Made by a program: the position numbers and the translations under genes. A stretch of DNA of 47,158 nt from Paraglaciecola sp. (GTDB taxonomy: Bacteria > Pseudomonadota > Gammaproteobacteria > Enterobacterales > Alteromonadaceae), in assembly GCA_009993955.1 (NCBI GenBank), contig JAACSL010000029.1, positions 1 to 47,158 of the forward strand, written 5' to 3'. The notes below the pieces were generated by a model. It did not search any database. It was not told the DNA's origin and worked only from the letters and a program-made list of their open reading frames with translations. Positions 41,064 through 46,962 of the stretch are shown here, piece after piece. The number at the start of each line of letters is the position of its first letter. Position 1 is the stretch's first letter.

Positions 41064-41549
41064 ATGAACATCACTCAACACAGCGTCGCCACGATTCATT
41101 TTACAGTTTGCACGGCAGATGGAACACAAATCGACACCTCGCGCAACGGTAAACCGATGGAGTACCTACAAGGTAGCCACTACCTGATCCAAGGTTTAGA
41201 AAATGAGTTGGAAGGTAAACAGGCCGGCGATGTTTTTAACATCGACGTATCACCAGAGTTGGCTTACGGTGAACGTCACGAAACCTTGGTACAAGTAGTG
41301 CCTAAGGAAATGTTTGGGGATATGGATGTGAATCCTGGCATGACATTTCGTGCGACAACTGATGACGGTGAACAATCAGTGATGATTATTGACGTCACAG
41401 ATGATGAAGTAGTGGTAGACGGCAACCACCCACTATCAGGATTGACCTTAAATTTTGATGTAGAAGTCTTGGCCGTTAGACCTGCAACGTCTGAAGAAAT
41501 TGCCCATGGCCATCCCCACTCTGCAGAAGGTTGCGGACACGACCATTAA
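41064..41549 (+). CDS. slyD: FKBP-type peptidyl-prolyl isomerase SlyD
   Basis: SlyD is a cytoplasmic prolyl isomerase, chaperone and nickel-binding protein involved in hydrogenase maturation. It has 161 residues. The FKBP domain has ADGTQIDTSRNGKPMEYLQG and LEGKQAGDVFNIDV. The insert-in-flap chaperone loop follows near residues 70-120. The tail is short and histidine-rich (HGHPHSAEGCGHDH), less extensive than in E. coli SlyD, so nickel binding may be weaker. Confidence 0.95.
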   Translation: MNITQHSVATIHFTVCTADGTQIDTSRNGKPMEYLQGSHYLIQGLENELEGKQAGDVFNIDVSPELAYGERHETLVQVVPKEMFGDMDVNPGMTFRATTDDGEQSVMIIDVTDDEVVVDGNHPLSGLTLNFDVEVLAVRPATSEEIAHGHPHSAEGCGHDH

Positions 41550-41638
41550 TCACTGGGTCCGGGACGCTGAGCTTTTTGTCATACACCGCTTATCCATGCA
41601 TTTAAGTTTTTAGCTCCTTTGACTTAAATAACAGAAGA

Positions 41639-41659
41639 TTCAATATCTTAGATATTGAA
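41639..41659. promoter_or_regulatory. 21-bp palindrome upstream of imuA
   Basis: TTCAATATCT (41639-41648), T, AGATATTGAA (41650-41659): perfect dyad with an odd centre. It lies about 30 bases before the LexA palindrome. It may be a second operator or the end structure of slyD. It does not match the LexA consensus. Confidence 0.5.
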
Positions 41660-41685
41660 TTAAGATTCTGGCTTGCATCTTTTTA

Positions 41686-41727
41686 AAGCACAAATATACT
41701 GTACATAAATACAGTATATTTGTGCTT
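41686..41727. promoter_or_regulatory. LexA (SOS) box inside a 42-bp palindrome before imuA
   Basis: The core CTGT-8 bp-ACAG (41699-41714) matches the gammaproteobacterial LexA box. It is nested in 18-base perfect arms, AAGCACAAATATACTGTA (41686-41703) and its complement (41710-41727), with a 6-base centre. The palindrome contains TATACT (41695-41700), a likely -10 box, and ends one base before the imuA ATG. Confidence 0.9.
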
Positions 41728-42417
41728 ATGAATCCTATTCTCGAACATCTAAAAAATAAAAACCTCTTGTGGCAAGGGCAACAGCGCATCCTGCAAAGCG
41801 ATGCCAACAGCACTGGTTTCAGTGACTTAGACGAGCAACTACAAGGGGGTTTTCCTGATCAGGGAGTCGTTGACATCCATAGCCCTTTCGGGATAGGTGA
41901 GCTACGTCTGTTGTGCCCCACATTAGTACTCAGACAACAACGATACGATGAAAGCCTACTTATTTTTATTGCCCCACCTTTGACGATTAATAGTGAAATG
42001 CTCGGTGAATTTGGTCTTAATTTAGAGCATACCGTGGTTATCCAAACAAGCTCTGTACATGAGGTGTTATGGAGCACTGAGCAGTGTTTGAAAAGTGGCT
42101 GCTGTCATACCGTACTTGTCTGGCAACAAGATCTTGAAATCGCCCAGGTGAAACGTCTTCAACTGGCCGCTGAAAAAGGTCAATGTGTTTTGTTTATGTT
42201 ACGCCAGAGTAAAGCAGACAGCCTACCCTTACCCGTGACGCTAGCACTTAAATTAACTCCCCATACGCGTGGACTGAATAGTCAAATTACCAAGCGTAAA
42301 GGTGGCTGGCCAAGTGGTCCATTTATAATCCCAATGCAACAATACTGGCCTGAACTGAGCATTGCAGACAGCGCACAAATATTGCATTTTGAACACCCAC
42401 ATAGCCATGTAGGATAG
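41728..42417 (+). CDS. imuA: ImuA (SulA/RecA-like) accessory protein of SOS mutagenesis
   Basis: ImuA is the RecA-like first member of the imuA-imuB-dnaE2 translesion cassette; databases often label it a SulA-type protein. The start is set at the ATG at 41728; a GTG at 41722 is in frame but lies inside the operator palindrome. It has 229 residues. It resembles a RecA core, but the Walker A position reads SPFGIGELRLL (residues 52-62), lacking the Lys and Ser/Thr, so ATP binding is probably lost. The LexA box directly upstream implies SOS induction. It lies 12 bases before imuB. Confidence 0.9.
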   Translation: MNPILEHLKNKNLLWQGQQRILQSDANSTGFSDLDEQLQGGFPDQGVVDIHSPFGIGELRLLCPTLVLRQQRYDESLLIFIAPPLTINSEMLGEFGLNLEHTVVIQTSSVHEVLWSTEQCLKSGCCHTVLVWQQDLEIAQVKRLQLAAEKGQCVLFMLRQSKADSLPLPVTLALKLTPHTRGLNSQITKRKGGWPSGPFIIPMQQYWPELSIADSAQILHFEHPHSHVG

Positions 42418-42429
42418 TGACTGAGCGCA

Positions 42430-43848
42430 ATGCAAAGTTTATGGCTGTACCTTTATTTTCCTAGCCTGCAATTGGACACATTATTAGAGCAGATGCGAGG
42501 CCAAGGTGTTGAAGAACGTGCCTATGTGGTGGTTGATCAACAAGCAAATAGAGTATGCCAACTTAATGCTTTTGCTTATTCAGCCGGTATCCGTTTAGGT
42601 ATGGGACTGGCGAGCGCAGCCTTATTACATCGCGACCTGCAAGTCATCGCTTATCAAGATGATGTCACTCAAGGACGTTTGGAAGACATTGCCAATAGCT
42701 TGTATTTGATCACCAGCGATATTTGTTTTTTTAAACCCCATGGATTACTGCTGCGTGTTCATCATATGTTGGGTTTGTATGGTGGTTTAAAGGCTTATTG
42801 GCAAGTGCTCAAAAATCAATTGGCTGAGCAGCACGTCCATTACCACTATGCCACTGGCTACTCTCCCTTGGCTGCTGAAATGCTTGCTAGAGTGGGTAAA
42901 AATTGTGTTAGCGATGATCAATCATGGCTCCATAAACAAGTCTTAAACTGCGTTTTAGAAGACTGCCAATTAGATAACAACGTGACCAATAAACTGTCTC
43001 GTGTCGGGATTAAAACAGTGGCCGATTTATTGGCTATCTCCCTGCATGACCTAGCGCAACGCTTTGATAATAACCTTGCTACTTACATAGGAAGACTCAC
43101 CGCCAGTCTTGCTCACCCTATGGTATTTTATCATCCGCCAGAATACTTCAGTCGTTATTTAGAATTACTCTATGAAATTGAAAACACTCAGTTTTTATTA
43201 AATCCCTTACAACAACTTTTCAGAACCTTAGAAACGTTTTTACGCACTCGTGATTTAATCACTCATGCGGTGCAGTTGCGTTTTTATCAGCGTGATCATC
43301 CCCCTTTGGAATGTCAAATTGGCTCACAGCAGGGTGAATATAAAATGGCGGTTTGGCTTAGTTTAAGTCGTTTAAAACTAGAGTCATTACAGCTAAACAG
43401 TCCCATTTATGCCCTGAATTTAAGTACCAATAATACTCAAGTCAGAAGCCCTGAAAGACCCGATTTTTTTACTGGTAAACAAGGCACGGTATCGCGTTTA
43501 AAGTTACTTTCTCTACTCCAAGCGAAGTTAGGGGAACAAGCGCTATATCAGCCTCGATTAGTGGATGACTTTCGCCCAGAACTTGCCGTGCAAGCAGCTA
43601 AATTAGCTAAGCAAGGCAACATAACCATGCCCTTATATGCTTTAAGACCGAGTTTTTTATTGCCTCAGCCTTGCCCTTTGCAAAAAAAAGTAAGGCTTAT
43701 TCATGGCCCCGAGCGCTTAAACACCGGCTGGTGGGATCATCATCCTGTGATACGCGATTATTTTATTGCTAGAACACCTCAAGGACAGTGGTGGTGGGTT
43801 TTTAAAAGCCCTGAGCAGCACTGGTACTTACACGGCATTTTTAGCTGA
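42430..43848 (+). CDS. imuB: ImuB, Y-family polymerase-like mutagenesis protein
   Basis: ImuB is the inactive Y-family polymerase homologue that acts as the hub joining DnaE2 and the sliding clamp in other bacteria. It has 472 residues. The N-terminal LWLYLYFPSLQLDTLL occupies the position of the first Y-family acidic motif but lacks its aspartates, and HGLLLRVHHMLGLYGG replaces the SIDEA motif, so catalysis is not expected. The C-terminus has MPLYALRPSFLLPQP, a candidate clamp-binding area, and ends RTPQGQWWWVFK ... WYLHGIFS as in the family. It is the middle gene of the cassette. Confidence 0.93.
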   Translation: MQSLWLYLYFPSLQLDTLLEQMRGQGVEERAYVVVDQQANRVCQLNAFAYSAGIRLGMGLASAALLHRDLQVIAYQDDVTQGRLEDIANSLYLITSDICFFKPHGLLLRVHHMLGLYGGLKAYWQVLKNQLAEQHVHYHYATGYSPLAAEMLARVGKNCVSDDQSWLHKQVLNCVLEDCQLDNNVTNKLSRVGIKTVADLLAISLHDLAQRFDNNLATYIGRLTASLAHPMVFYHPPEYFSRYLELLYEIENTQFLLNPLQQLFRTLETFLRTRDLITHAVQLRFYQRDHPPLECQIGSQQGEYKMAVWLSLSRLKLESLQLNSPIYALNLSTNNTQVRSPERPDFFTGKQGTVSRLKLLSLLQAKLGEQALYQPRLVDDFRPELAVQAAKLAKQGNITMPLYALRPSFLLPQPCPLQKKVRLIHGPERLNTGWWDHHPVIRDYFIARTPQGQWWWVFKSPEQHWYLHGIFS

Positions 43849-43872: not shown

Positions 43873-46800
43873 ATGCACACACAGTATGCGGAGTTATTTT
43901 GCCAGAGTAATTTCAGTTTTTTATGGGGAGCCTCACACCCTGAGGAGTTGGTCAAACAAGCTGATTTTTTAGGTTATCAAGCCTTAGCAATTACCGATGA
44001 ATGCTCAGTAGCAGGGGTAGTTAGAGCGTATACTGCCATCCGTGATCAAGGCCTATCCCTTAAACTGATCATTGGTAGCCTGTTTAACTATAAGGATGAG
44101 CTACAACTTGTTTTACTTTGCCCCGACCGCCAAGCTTATGCTGAACTATGTCGAGTGATCACCAATGCTAGAAAACGCGCGGTTAAGGGGCAGTATCAAC
44201 TGGATAAATGGGATCTGCGTTCAGTTCAACATTGCTTAGTTTTATGGCTACCGACAGGTCAGAGTAAGCATGATGATCATTGGGCAATTTGGCTGAAAAA
44301 ACATTATAAAGATCGTTTATGGCTAGGTTATCCCCGCTATTTACAAGCAAATGAGCAACGCTATTTACGCACCATAGAAAAATTAGCCCAAGAGCATCAT
44401 TTGCCTATTACCGCTTGTGGCGGCGTATTGATGCATGTAGCCGAGCGTTTACCTTTACAGCACGTATTGTGTGCCATCAAACAAGGACAGGCCGTGCATG
44501 ATTTGGGACGACAGTTACTGCCAAATAGCGAACGCTGTTTACGTCCTCTGACTAAGCTCGCTAGCTTATATACCCCAGCAATGCTCAGAGAATCACTGAG
44601 TATTGCTAAGCGTTGTTGTTTTGATTTATCCCAACTGCGCTATGAATACCCTAGCGAAATAATTCCGCCAGGACAAAATGCTTCTGATTATTTACGTTAC
44701 TTGGTGCTTAAAGGTATGCAATTGCGTTTTGGCGCAGATGGTCGATTGAGTTTTGCCATCAAACGCATTATTGCTAAAGAATTAAAATTAATTAAAGAGT
44801 TGGGTTACGAATACTTTTTTCTGACTATTTACGACGTTGTGCAATTTGCCAAGCAGCAACATATTCTGTATCAAGGCAGAGGTTCAGCAGCCAACTCCGT
44901 GGTATGTTACTGCTTGGAAATTACGGCCGTCGATCCACGTCAAATCTCCGTATTATTCGAACGTTTTATTTCCAAGGAGCGTAAAGAAGAGCCTGATATT
45001 GACGTTGATTTTGAACATCATCGACGTGAAGAAGTTATTCAATACGTGTATAAAAAATATGGACGTGAACGTACGGCCATTGCCGCCACCGTTTGCACTT
45101 ACCGGCATAAAAGTGCAATCCGTGAAGTGGGCAAAGCATTGGGTATCAACCTCACTCAGCTCGATTTTTTCATAAAAAATATCAATCATCGTGACCAAGA
45201 GATGGGCTGGCAGAGGCAGATTAATGAATTAGGGCTAGTCAGTGATAGCCCCAAAGGCCAACAATTCATTGCCTTAGTGAATCAAATCAAAGGCTTTCCT
45301 CGCCATTTGTCTCAGCATGTAGGGGGCTTTGTGATCTCAGAAGGACCGCTTTATCAGTTGGTGCCTATTGAGAATGCGGCCATGCCAGATAGGAGTGTTA
45401 TTCAATGGGATAAAGACGACTTGGAAAGTTTGGGTTTACTCAAAGTGGACATTCTAGCCTTAGGCATGCTGAATGCTATTCACAAATCGTTTGATCTTAT
45501 TCAACAACATCAACAGCGCCAGTTGAGCATTGCGCAAATCACCAAAATGGGGGATGACCCTGCGGTGTTTAATATGATCCAGCAAGCTGATACGGTGGGG
45601 GTGTTTCAAATTGAATCGCGGGCTCAAATGAGTATGTTACCGCGTTTAAAACCAAGCACATTTTACGACTTGGTCATTCAAATAGCGATAGTCAGGCCTG
45701 GGCCGATTCAAGGCGGCATGGTGCATCCATTTTTACAGAACCGGCAAAATCCAAGCAACATAAGCTACCCAAGCAAAGCCTTAGAAGATGTGCTTGGCCG
45801 CACTTGTGGTGTACCTATTTTTCAAGAACAAGTGATTAAACTAGCGATGGTCGCCGCAGGTTTTAGCGGCGGAGAAGCAGATCAATTACGCCGCGCCATG
45901 GGTAGCTGGAAAAAAACCGGTGAATTATTGGGTTTTCAACAAAAACTTATTAACGGCATGATGCAAAGAGGCTATTCCGTCGAGTTTGCCGAACGCATAT
46001 TTAATCAAATAAAAGGCTTTGGCGAATACGGTTTCCCCGAATCGCATTCCGCTTCTTTTGCCGTTCTCGCTTATGTTTCGTCATGGCTAAAATACTATTA
46101 TCCCGTGGCATTTTATGTGGGTTTACTTAACAGTTGGCCTATGGGATTTTACGCACCTGCTCAGTTAATCCAGGATGCGCTACGCCACAATATTGAAGTA
46201 TTGCCTATATGCATTAATGCTTCTGATTATGACCACAGTATGGAATGGTCAAATAATACTTGGGCATTGCGTTTAGGCATGCGTTTGGTTAAATCCTTAT
46301 CGCAAAGTGTGTGTGAAACCCTGATTCAACATCGTCCATCACAAGGGTATACACATTTCAATCAACTCAAGCAGTTGGGTATTTCCACCTCACAACTAGA
46401 CGCCCTGGCCAGTGCTAATGCCTTTCATCGTTTAGAGACTAACCGCTATGCGGTACGCTGGAGATTGATGAATAGGGAAGCAGATTTACCTCTACTACAG
46501 TCTCAAAGCGAACAAACTCATACTCAAATCAAGCCTTTGATGGTAGCGGAGCAACTCACCGAAGACTATATAGCCACAGGCTTAAGCTTGCAAAAACACC
46601 CTATTCAATTGTTAAGAGAAGCAAAGCTTATTACCAGTTACACAGCTGCCAACAAACTGCACACATGCGAACATAAAAAACCTGTCAGTGTTGTAGGATT
46701 AGTGACCGGAAGACAGCGACCTGGCACATCCAATGGGGTGACATTTATGACCTTAGAAGATGAAACTGGCAATATTAATGTGATTGTTTGGCAAGCCACG

Positions 46801-46962
46801 GCCCGCGCCCAAAAACAAGCCTTTCTCAAATCTTCTATCGTCAGAGTCAACGGTATATTGGAAAGGGGAGATGCTGGTGTCACGCATATTATTGCAGGTA
46901 AAATTCATAATCTCAGTCATCTACTCGCAGAACTTCATGCACATTCGCGAGACTTTCATTGA
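43873..46962 (+). CDS. dnaE2: Error-prone DNA polymerase DnaE2 (ImuC)
   Basis: DnaE2 is the C-family alpha-subunit-like polymerase that carries out damage-induced mutagenesis. It has 1029 residues. The PHP domain begins YAELFCQSNFSFLWGASHPEELV. The palm aspartates Asp375, Asp377 and Asp379 lie in PDIDVDFEHHRR. A further conserved acid lies in LLKVDILALGML. The thumb and finger region shows FGEYGFPESHSASFAVLAY. A C-terminal OB fold starts near KPVSVVGLVTGRQRPG. It lies 25 bases after imuB and should be SOS-induced from the imuA promoter. Confidence 0.97.
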   Translation: MHTQYAELFCQSNFSFLWGASHPEELVKQADFLGYQALAITDECSVAGVVRAYTAIRDQGLSLKLIIGSLFNYKDELQLVLLCPDRQAYAELCRVITNARKRAVKGQYQLDKWDLRSVQHCLVLWLPTGQSKHDDHWAIWLKKHYKDRLWLGYPRYLQANEQRYLRTIEKLAQEHHLPITACGGVLMHVAERLPLQHVLCAIKQGQAVHDLGRQLLPNSERCLRPLTKLASLYTPAMLRESLSIAKRCCFDLSQLRYEYPSEIIPPGQNASDYLRYLVLKGMQLRFGADGRLSFAIKRIIAKELKLIKELGYEYFFLTIYDVVQFAKQQHILYQGRGSAANSVVCYCLEITAVDPRQISVLFERFISKERKEEPDIDVDFEHHRREEVIQYVYKKYGRERTAIAATVCTYRHKSAIREVGKALGINLTQLDFFIKNINHRDQEMGWQRQINELGLVSDSPKGQQFIALVNQIKGFPRHLSQHVGGFVISEGPLYQLVPIENAAMPDRSVIQWDKDDLESLGLLKVDILALGMLNAIHKSFDLIQQHQQRQLSIAQITKMGDDPAVFNMIQQADTVGVFQIESRAQMSMLPRLKPSTFYDLVIQIAIVRPGPIQGGMVHPFLQNRQNPSNISYPSKALEDVLGRTCGVPIFQEQVIKLAMVAAGFSGGEADQLRRAMGSWKKTGELLGFQQKLINGMMQRGYSVEFAERIFNQIKGFGEYGFPESHSASFAVLAYVSSWLKYYYPVAFYVGLLNSWPMGFYAPAQLIQDALRHNIEVLPICINASDYDHSMEWSNNTWALRLGMRLVKSLSQSVCETLIQHRPSQGYTHFNQLKQLGISTSQLDALASANAFHRLETNRYAVRWRLMNREADLPLLQSQSEQTHTQIKPLMVAEQLTEDYIATGLSLQKHPIQLLREAKLITSYTAANKLHTCEHKKPVSVVGLVTGRQRPGTSNGVTFMTLEDETGNINVIVWQATARAQKQAFLKSSIVRVNGILERGDAGVTHIIAGKIHNLSHLLAELHAHSRDFH

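Follow-up and report, generated by a model that had tools for sequence, protein, structure and literature searches.

A LexA operator palindrome as a candidate RNA-level lock on the imuA mutasome cassette of Paraglaciecola sp. and its relatives

The window, the whole stretch of 47,158 nucleotides analysed here (Paraglaciecola sp., contig JAACSL010000029.1), carries a run of genes on the + strand in the order ygfZ, slyD-like, imuA, imuB-like and dnaE2. The slyD-like open reading frame (41064–41549) encodes an FKBP peptidyl-prolyl isomerase that matched NCBIfam model NF008008 with an E value of 2.5e-43, below the model cut-off. Matches over cut-off were obtained for imuA (41728–42417, a translesion-synthesis accessory protein, NF033429) and for dnaE2/imuC (43873–46962, an error-prone DNA polymerase, NF004225). 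The gene between them (42430–43848) had no NCBIfam match at E 0.001 and was assigned as imuB-like from its position in the cassette. With ImuA and DnaE2 in order by NCBIfam and imuB placed by position only, the run was identified as a probably LexA-regulated imuA-imuB-dnaE2 cassette, the gene order and persistent LexA control of which have been described (PMC3323433). A LexA box is present at the imuA promoter, and the source genome contains a LexA gene (G000:C6:9019, over cut-off) with CTGT-N8-ACAG boxes directly upstream at C6:8975 and C6:8996; exact sites of this form number 51 in that genome. The same box, and binding of LexA at imuA of V. parahaemolyticus, have been reported, and in the excerpted part of that report LexA control alone is described, with no RNA layer (PMC3323433). 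The slyD-like gene, being co-oriented with imuA, is the presumed source of read-through RNA. Among close relatives (L005–L021) the genes next to the imuA cassette differ, and slyD, a response-regulator-like gene and an EVE-domain-like gene were named there by eye; because the upstream neighbours differ among close relatives, the cassette seems to move often.

Between slyD and imuA lies a 42-bp palindrome (41686–41727; AAGCACAAATATACTGTA-CATAAA-TACAGTATATTTGTGCTT), which carries the LexA box and ends, as the original prediction had it, immediately before the imuA ATG at 41728. Its 18-nt arms are 100% complementary and are separated by a 6-nt loop (41704–41709). The left arm (41686–41703, + strand) starts within the spacer of the promoter and is expected in read-through RNA only, and the right arm (41710–41727, + strand) forms the end of the untranslated leader and adjoins the start codon. 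The LexA box (CTGT-N8-ACAG, 41699–41714, no strand assigned), a 16-bp core of sequence CTGTACATAAATACAG, occupies the center of the palindrome, and the arms exceed it by 13 extra pairs on each side, which agrees with the earlier statement that they are far longer than the LexA site. No other perfect inverted repeat of the window has arms longer than 12 nt, and the longest arms in 100 first-order Markov simulations of the window composition were 13 nt. Eighteen further LexA-like sites in the source genome were read, and none had the same palindrome or more than 5 consecutive pairs outside the core; these sites were 17 of the other 50 exact CTGT-N8-ACAG sites plus one near-match, and some are probably no true LexA sites. 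No Shine-Dalgarno sequence was visible before the imuA ATG, and translation of imuA might alternatively begin at the in-frame GTG at 41722. The palindrome was also considered as an intrinsic terminator of the upstream gene; no terminator was found in 41500–41900, and the stem is followed by AUGAAUCC, with no U-tract. A second, separate AT-rich inverted repeat with perfect 11-nt arms (41638–41660, + strand) lies in the gap between slyD and the promoter. In the predicted fold it is prolonged outward as an imperfect stem, and the terminator scans used gave no terminator call for it.

The position of the promoter determines which part of the palindrome would enter each transcript. The likely -10 element TATACT that had been claimed to lie inside the palindrome was located there, at 41695–41700 on the + strand, and occurs at the same place in 163 of the 191 box-bearing loci, window included, that were used as the conservation sample. 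A -35 element, TTGCAT, was assigned at 41673–41678 (+ strand) with a 16-nt spacer, TTG being found at this spacing in 135 of the 191 loci. The assignment relies on this conservation; a consensus promoter scan reported 0 promoters at imuA because TTGCAT fits TTGACA at only three of six places. A start about 7 bases past the -10 element, as predicted from the conserved elements, would fall in the loop near 41707, which would make the left arm part of the promoter spacer and the right arm part of the leader. The real SOS start is thus predicted to lie inside the LexA box, in the loop of the palindrome. A start upstream of the whole palindrome in SOS-induced cells, the second outcome named beforehand as contrary to the idea, was addressed through these conserved elements. 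The idea that the palindrome acts as a promoter for both strands was dropped, since by eye the mirrored position has no -35 element. In predicted folds of several relatives (e.g. G021, G002, G020, G162 and G650) the stem is lengthened by pairing between TTGCAT and the start-codon sequence AUGCA.

The two transcripts expected at the locus were predicted to fold very differently. The read-through RNA gave a predicted fold of -24.6 kcal/mol (z -8.5 against shuffles), whereas the SOS leader starting at 41707 gave -1.8 kcal/mol and had little structure, and the predicted cost of opening the start site was 22.5 kcal/mol in the read-through RNA vs 3.2 kcal/mol in the SOS RNA. The long transcript is thus predicted to have its ribosome site paired, as in locks of the phage T4 type. 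The hairpin over the imuA AUG that the original prediction had envisaged was therefore reproduced by the fold and the opening cost; that it blocks translation we infer from these values. Predicted start-site hairpins of the PvuII system had no effect on testing (PMC2997769), and such hairpins can accordingly be idle.

Pairing of the arms was examined in a clade of eight members, made up of the window and its eight best same-genus ImuA matches minus G004, the contig of which breaks off within the box. The arms were predicted to co-vary in relatives, and indeed 83.6% of cells were paired across the clade, a value equalled in 0 of 500 shuffles. The covariation score was as high in 2 of 500 shuffles, and the corresponding number for pair changes on both sides was 20 of 500. 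Arms varying without compensation, the outcome named beforehand as contrary to the idea, were not observed. One outer pair appeared as C-G, A-U, G-C and U-A in different species of the clade. Five members had 13, 12, 15, 11 and 10 outer pairs and the remaining three had 6, 3 and 3, and these three, which lack extended arms, all lie behind a divergent gene. Extended arms (≥10 outer pairs) were thus kept by all four members with a co-oriented upstream gene and by one of the four with a divergent gene (G020). Seven other members of the genus (L014–L020) had GGTG ahead of the start codon and 0–7 outer pairs. The leaders of these seven have GGTG-type ribosome sites, and in one, G010, a shifted, weaker pairing between spacer and start codon takes the place of the palindrome.

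Outside the genus, at least 10 outer pairs were found with quite different letters at G136, G075, G301, G032, G067, G160, G388, G025, G146 and G413; the first three belong to one genus, and their arms differ at several paired positions. Altogether, 15 of 185 imuA loci in 9 of 41 genera had ≥10 outer pairs, with different letters and intact pairing, so that compensation was seen to preserve pairing both within the clade and across genera. In the first set the count was 13 of 121 family loci (7 of 31 genera) vs 0.035 expected when arms were swapped between genera, an early count for which 17 loci were scored from a position other than the start codon. The family loci came from 150 imuA loci read in 266 family genomes with a match, many of the remaining matches being weak. 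Searching the genera of G136, G032 and G025 added no imuA locus to the sample. A preliminary set of 80 loci kept from 160 relatives, five with ≥10 outer pairs and three without a box, overlaps the main set and was used in no test. In the window (G000), G160, G067 and G413 the arm runs right up to the start codon, and in the remaining eleven long palindromes it falls 1–9 nt short.

Covarying arms would be expected even without selection if template switching at replication (quasi-palindrome correction) had lengthened the palindromic operator and copied changes from arm to arm. Such a functionless, mutational origin would also account for the four long palindromes that lie behind divergent genes (G413, G067, G160 and G020). 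It should, however, have affected other LexA boxes, and 0 of the 18 examined in the source genome and 1 of 48 usable dinB loci had a comparable palindrome; it predicts no dependence on the orientation of the neighboring gene, and it would not yield stems that are off-register or contain G-U pairs. We regard this origin as very unlikely.

Stems of the latter kinds were predicted at several loci. The stem of G121 is off-register, uses sequence beside the LexA box and pairs with the AUG itself, and that of G098 is long, off-register and contains five G-U pairs. At one position a U-G pair in G165 corresponds to C-G in its congener G146, and G079 has a U-G within a stretch of 12 pairs. Interior single mismatches, taken as a test for G-U pairing, comprised two G-U, no A-C and one other, too few to decide. 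Off-register and G-U hairpins would fit RNA better than DNA symmetry. At the DNA level, the longer symmetry might help LexA to bind, provide a site for a second dimeric regulator or allow a cruciform to form at the promoter. Such a function would suit the centering of all 15 long palindromes on the LexA box, which follows from the counting method, and the first AT-rich flank pairs, which are shared widely among the loci. The outer letters vary between and within genera while the pairing stays, which argues against one common, specific protein site; moreover, neither off-register RNA stems nor the dependence on orientation described below would be expected from it. Of the alternatives weighed here, a DNA-level function appears the least probable.

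If the palindrome guards against read-through, it should occur where the upstream gene is co-oriented. Each locus was scored by what it would cost to open the start site in its read-through RNA, both with the native 40-nt left flank and with flanks taken from other genera. The upstream gene was the nearest open reading frame by rule (≥70 aa at first, 80 aa later), the families of these neighbors being mostly unchecked and homolog support for them in other genera too sparse to use. The first set comprised 130 loci, of which 121 had the exact box (122 under a looser rule) and 117 were used. The held-out set, fetched after the first test, comprised 81 loci, 20 from the family of the first set and 61 from other families, 22 of the latter belonging to one Vibrio-like genus; 69 had the box and 68 were used, with swap flanks drawn from both sets.

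In the first set the 54 co-oriented loci had a mean percentile of 0.79 against swapped spacers, 20 of them at ≥0.95, vs 0.56 and 10 for the 63 divergent loci, scores that include the 17 loci taken from non-start-codon positions. The difference recurred in the held-out set, in which 37 co-oriented loci had a mean of 0.79 (19 at ≥0.95) and 31 divergent loci a mean of 0.43 (2 at ≥0.95; p 2.6e-6). In the pooled test of 185 loci, which was scored from true starts, took 55 co-oriented and 62 divergent loci from the first set and used same-orientation swaps, ≥0.95 was reached by 27 of 92 co-oriented and 12 of 93 divergent loci (p 2e-8 for the difference). With these swaps divergent loci of the first set also slightly exceeded their controls (p 0.016). 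Relatedness was handled by genus-plus-neighbor clusters and by permutation within genera. Across 82 such clusters the orientation difference had a p of 0.0066; the divergent clusters likewise exceeded zero (p 0.006), and permutation within the 13 mixed genera gave a p of 0.0002. The effect was moderate after cluster collapse.

The orientation effect persisted when the long palindromes were left out (p 9e-8), with wider and narrower windows, without the Vibrio-like genus (p 2e-6) and when only neighbor open reading frames of ≥150 aa were accepted (80 vs 73 loci, p 1e-8). A control window in the coding sequence gave no excess of complementarity. Relaxed constraint, in which a divergent promoter would occupy the left arm, was rejected as the cause, as loci with divergent genes ≥150 nt off still had no clear excess (44 loci, p 0.10); these loci differed from co-oriented ones with a p of 3.5e-5. 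Other measures were weaker. The raw difference between read-through and SOS opening costs, with no swap control, had medians of 5.8 vs 4.2 kcal/mol (p 0.006), and the shares of raw opening costs above 10 kcal/mol, among the same early-scored first-set loci, did not differ (10 of 54 co-oriented, 8 of 63 divergent). Long palindromes occurred behind divergent genes in 4 of 15 cases (G020, G160, G067 and G413), and their presence against orientation alone gave a p of 0.049 only.

The same analysis was applied to dinB, another LexA-controlled polymerase gene, for which 116 genomes had a match, 70 loci were read, 60 had a box and 47 were used. Neither the 28 co-oriented loci (mean percentile 0.48, four at ≥0.95, p 0.55) nor the 19 divergent loci (one at ≥0.95, p 0.55) showed an excess. 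A palindrome was present at 1 of 48 usable dinB loci. At this locus, G114 (L372), which lies behind a co-oriented gene, the LexA box is extended by 10 pairs; by eye, the extension resumes past a two-base bulge to end beside a presumed GTG start, much as in the imuA loci, and the device is therefore not confined to imuA.

Termination upstream of the cassette did not behave as expected from the simplest form of the read-through lock. In a permissive scan for terminator-like structures between the genes, the signal was not lower at the 46 loci with such a structure than at the 46 without, and tended to be higher, a result contrary to that form of the idea. As the signal was undiminished by terminators, the lock would have to act as a second line behind imperfect terminators, unless another cause is involved. 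A rival reading is that the hairpin serves the upstream gene by stabilizing or ending the 3′ ends of slyD-type mRNAs, and that the start of imuA is covered only because the LexA palindrome was a convenient seed. This would likewise predict a link with co-oriented neighbors, and it is not weakened by the terminator result. On the other hand, the stem in the window has no following U-tract; the signal sits at the start site and is absent in the coding window; dinB loci that combine a co-oriented neighbor with a start-proximal LexA box lack an excess when taken together (4 of 28 at ≥0.95); and the off-register stems of G121 and G098 still reach or cover the start codon. A role for the upstream gene is thus unlikely, if the most plausible of the alternatives.

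The reading preferred here, to which we give a probability of about 0.7 on the basis of sequence comparison and modelling, is that the palindrome combines a LexA operator with an RNA lock formed by extension of its flanks, the lock being gained and lost with the orientation of the neighboring gene. LexA would shut the promoter on the DNA. Once LexA is cleaved, transcription would start in the middle of the palindrome and yield an mRNA with the right arm only and an open start site, while a polymerase arriving from slyD would make an RNA with both arms, the hairpin of which would cover the ribosome entry site. Because the hairpin would hide this site, the error-prone polymerase cassette is proposed to remain untranslated without DNA damage. 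The two-layer lock of the original prediction, with LexA acting on DNA and a hairpin on unscheduled RNA, is supported by the covariation within the clade, by the dependence on orientation and by the off-register and G-U hairpins, the block itself being the step that is deduced from the fold. Gain or loss of the lock would follow the placing of the cassette behind a co-oriented or a divergent gene, and the comparisons suggest that evolution favors a second lock where stray RNA can enter from an upstream gene.

Read-through RNA that folds an inverted repeat over a start site is known from the protection of the IS10 and IS50 transposases against outside promoters and from the lac operator hairpin. 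There, as proposed for imuA, the proper transcript begins inside the inverted repeat, but the settings are mobile elements or a sugar operon, unlike that of imuA. A close likeness is with I-TevI of phage T4, for which transcripts from upstream promoters mask the ribosome site, part of the hairpin is missing from late transcripts, and the I-TevI protein binds an operator over its own late promoter (PMC2988022). For I-TevI, and as proposed for imuA, the promoter is placed such that short transcripts lose the 5′ strand of the hairpin, and a repressor over that promoter makes up a second layer. I-TevI is, however, a phage intron homing endonuclease with a late promoter and autorepression, whereas imuA lies in an SOS operon of the chromosome that LexA controls, its palindrome including the operator itself, and the I-TevI lock was tested experimentally (PMC2988022), whereas the imuA lock is proposed here from sequence and prediction. 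In T4 gene e (lysozyme) the long transcripts made early bury the start site in a fold, with a 100-fold reduction, late transcripts without the 5′ part are translated, and soc was named as similar (PMC3014915). The gene e hairpin follows the timing of the phage cycle and is described, in the part of the source available, without a repressor operator, whereas the imuA hairpin carries one (PMC3014915). LexA boxes also lie over the -10 elements of the ISCR transposase and integron integrase promoters (PMC13393415, PMC8876359). These resemble imuA in that the repressor box overlaps the -10 element of a gene with a harmful leak, and differ in that no read-through hairpin is described in the excerpts of these reports (PMC13393415, PMC8876359). 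Among the open-access papers listed in literature searches, none dealt, by its title or the opening of its abstract, with an RNA-level lock at imuA or on a LexA operator, a negative that carries little weight. The principle is known from I-TevI and gene e, and what appears to be new is its placement on the LexA operator of an SOS mutasome, with repeated gain and loss linked to gene context.

More broadly, the findings lean toward SOS mutasome promoters of this bacterial order carrying a safety device at the RNA level, in which the LexA operator would seed a hairpin that silences imuA RNA not started by the SOS promoter; this device would have arisen repeatedly from unrelated sequences and been kept or lost according to whether the neighbor is co-oriented. 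SOS control is usually told as LexA acting on DNA. If the proposal is correct, a repeated, context-dependent lock would mean that even very low leakage of error-prone polymerase is selected against, and if locks were selected on the mutasome operon and not on dinB as a group, leak from the uninduced cassette would therefore be costly enough to shape promoters. The cost of basal mutagenesis would then become testable, and the arrangement would provide a search rule for other repressed operons, namely a co-oriented gene upstream and an operator lengthened in the direction of the start codon.
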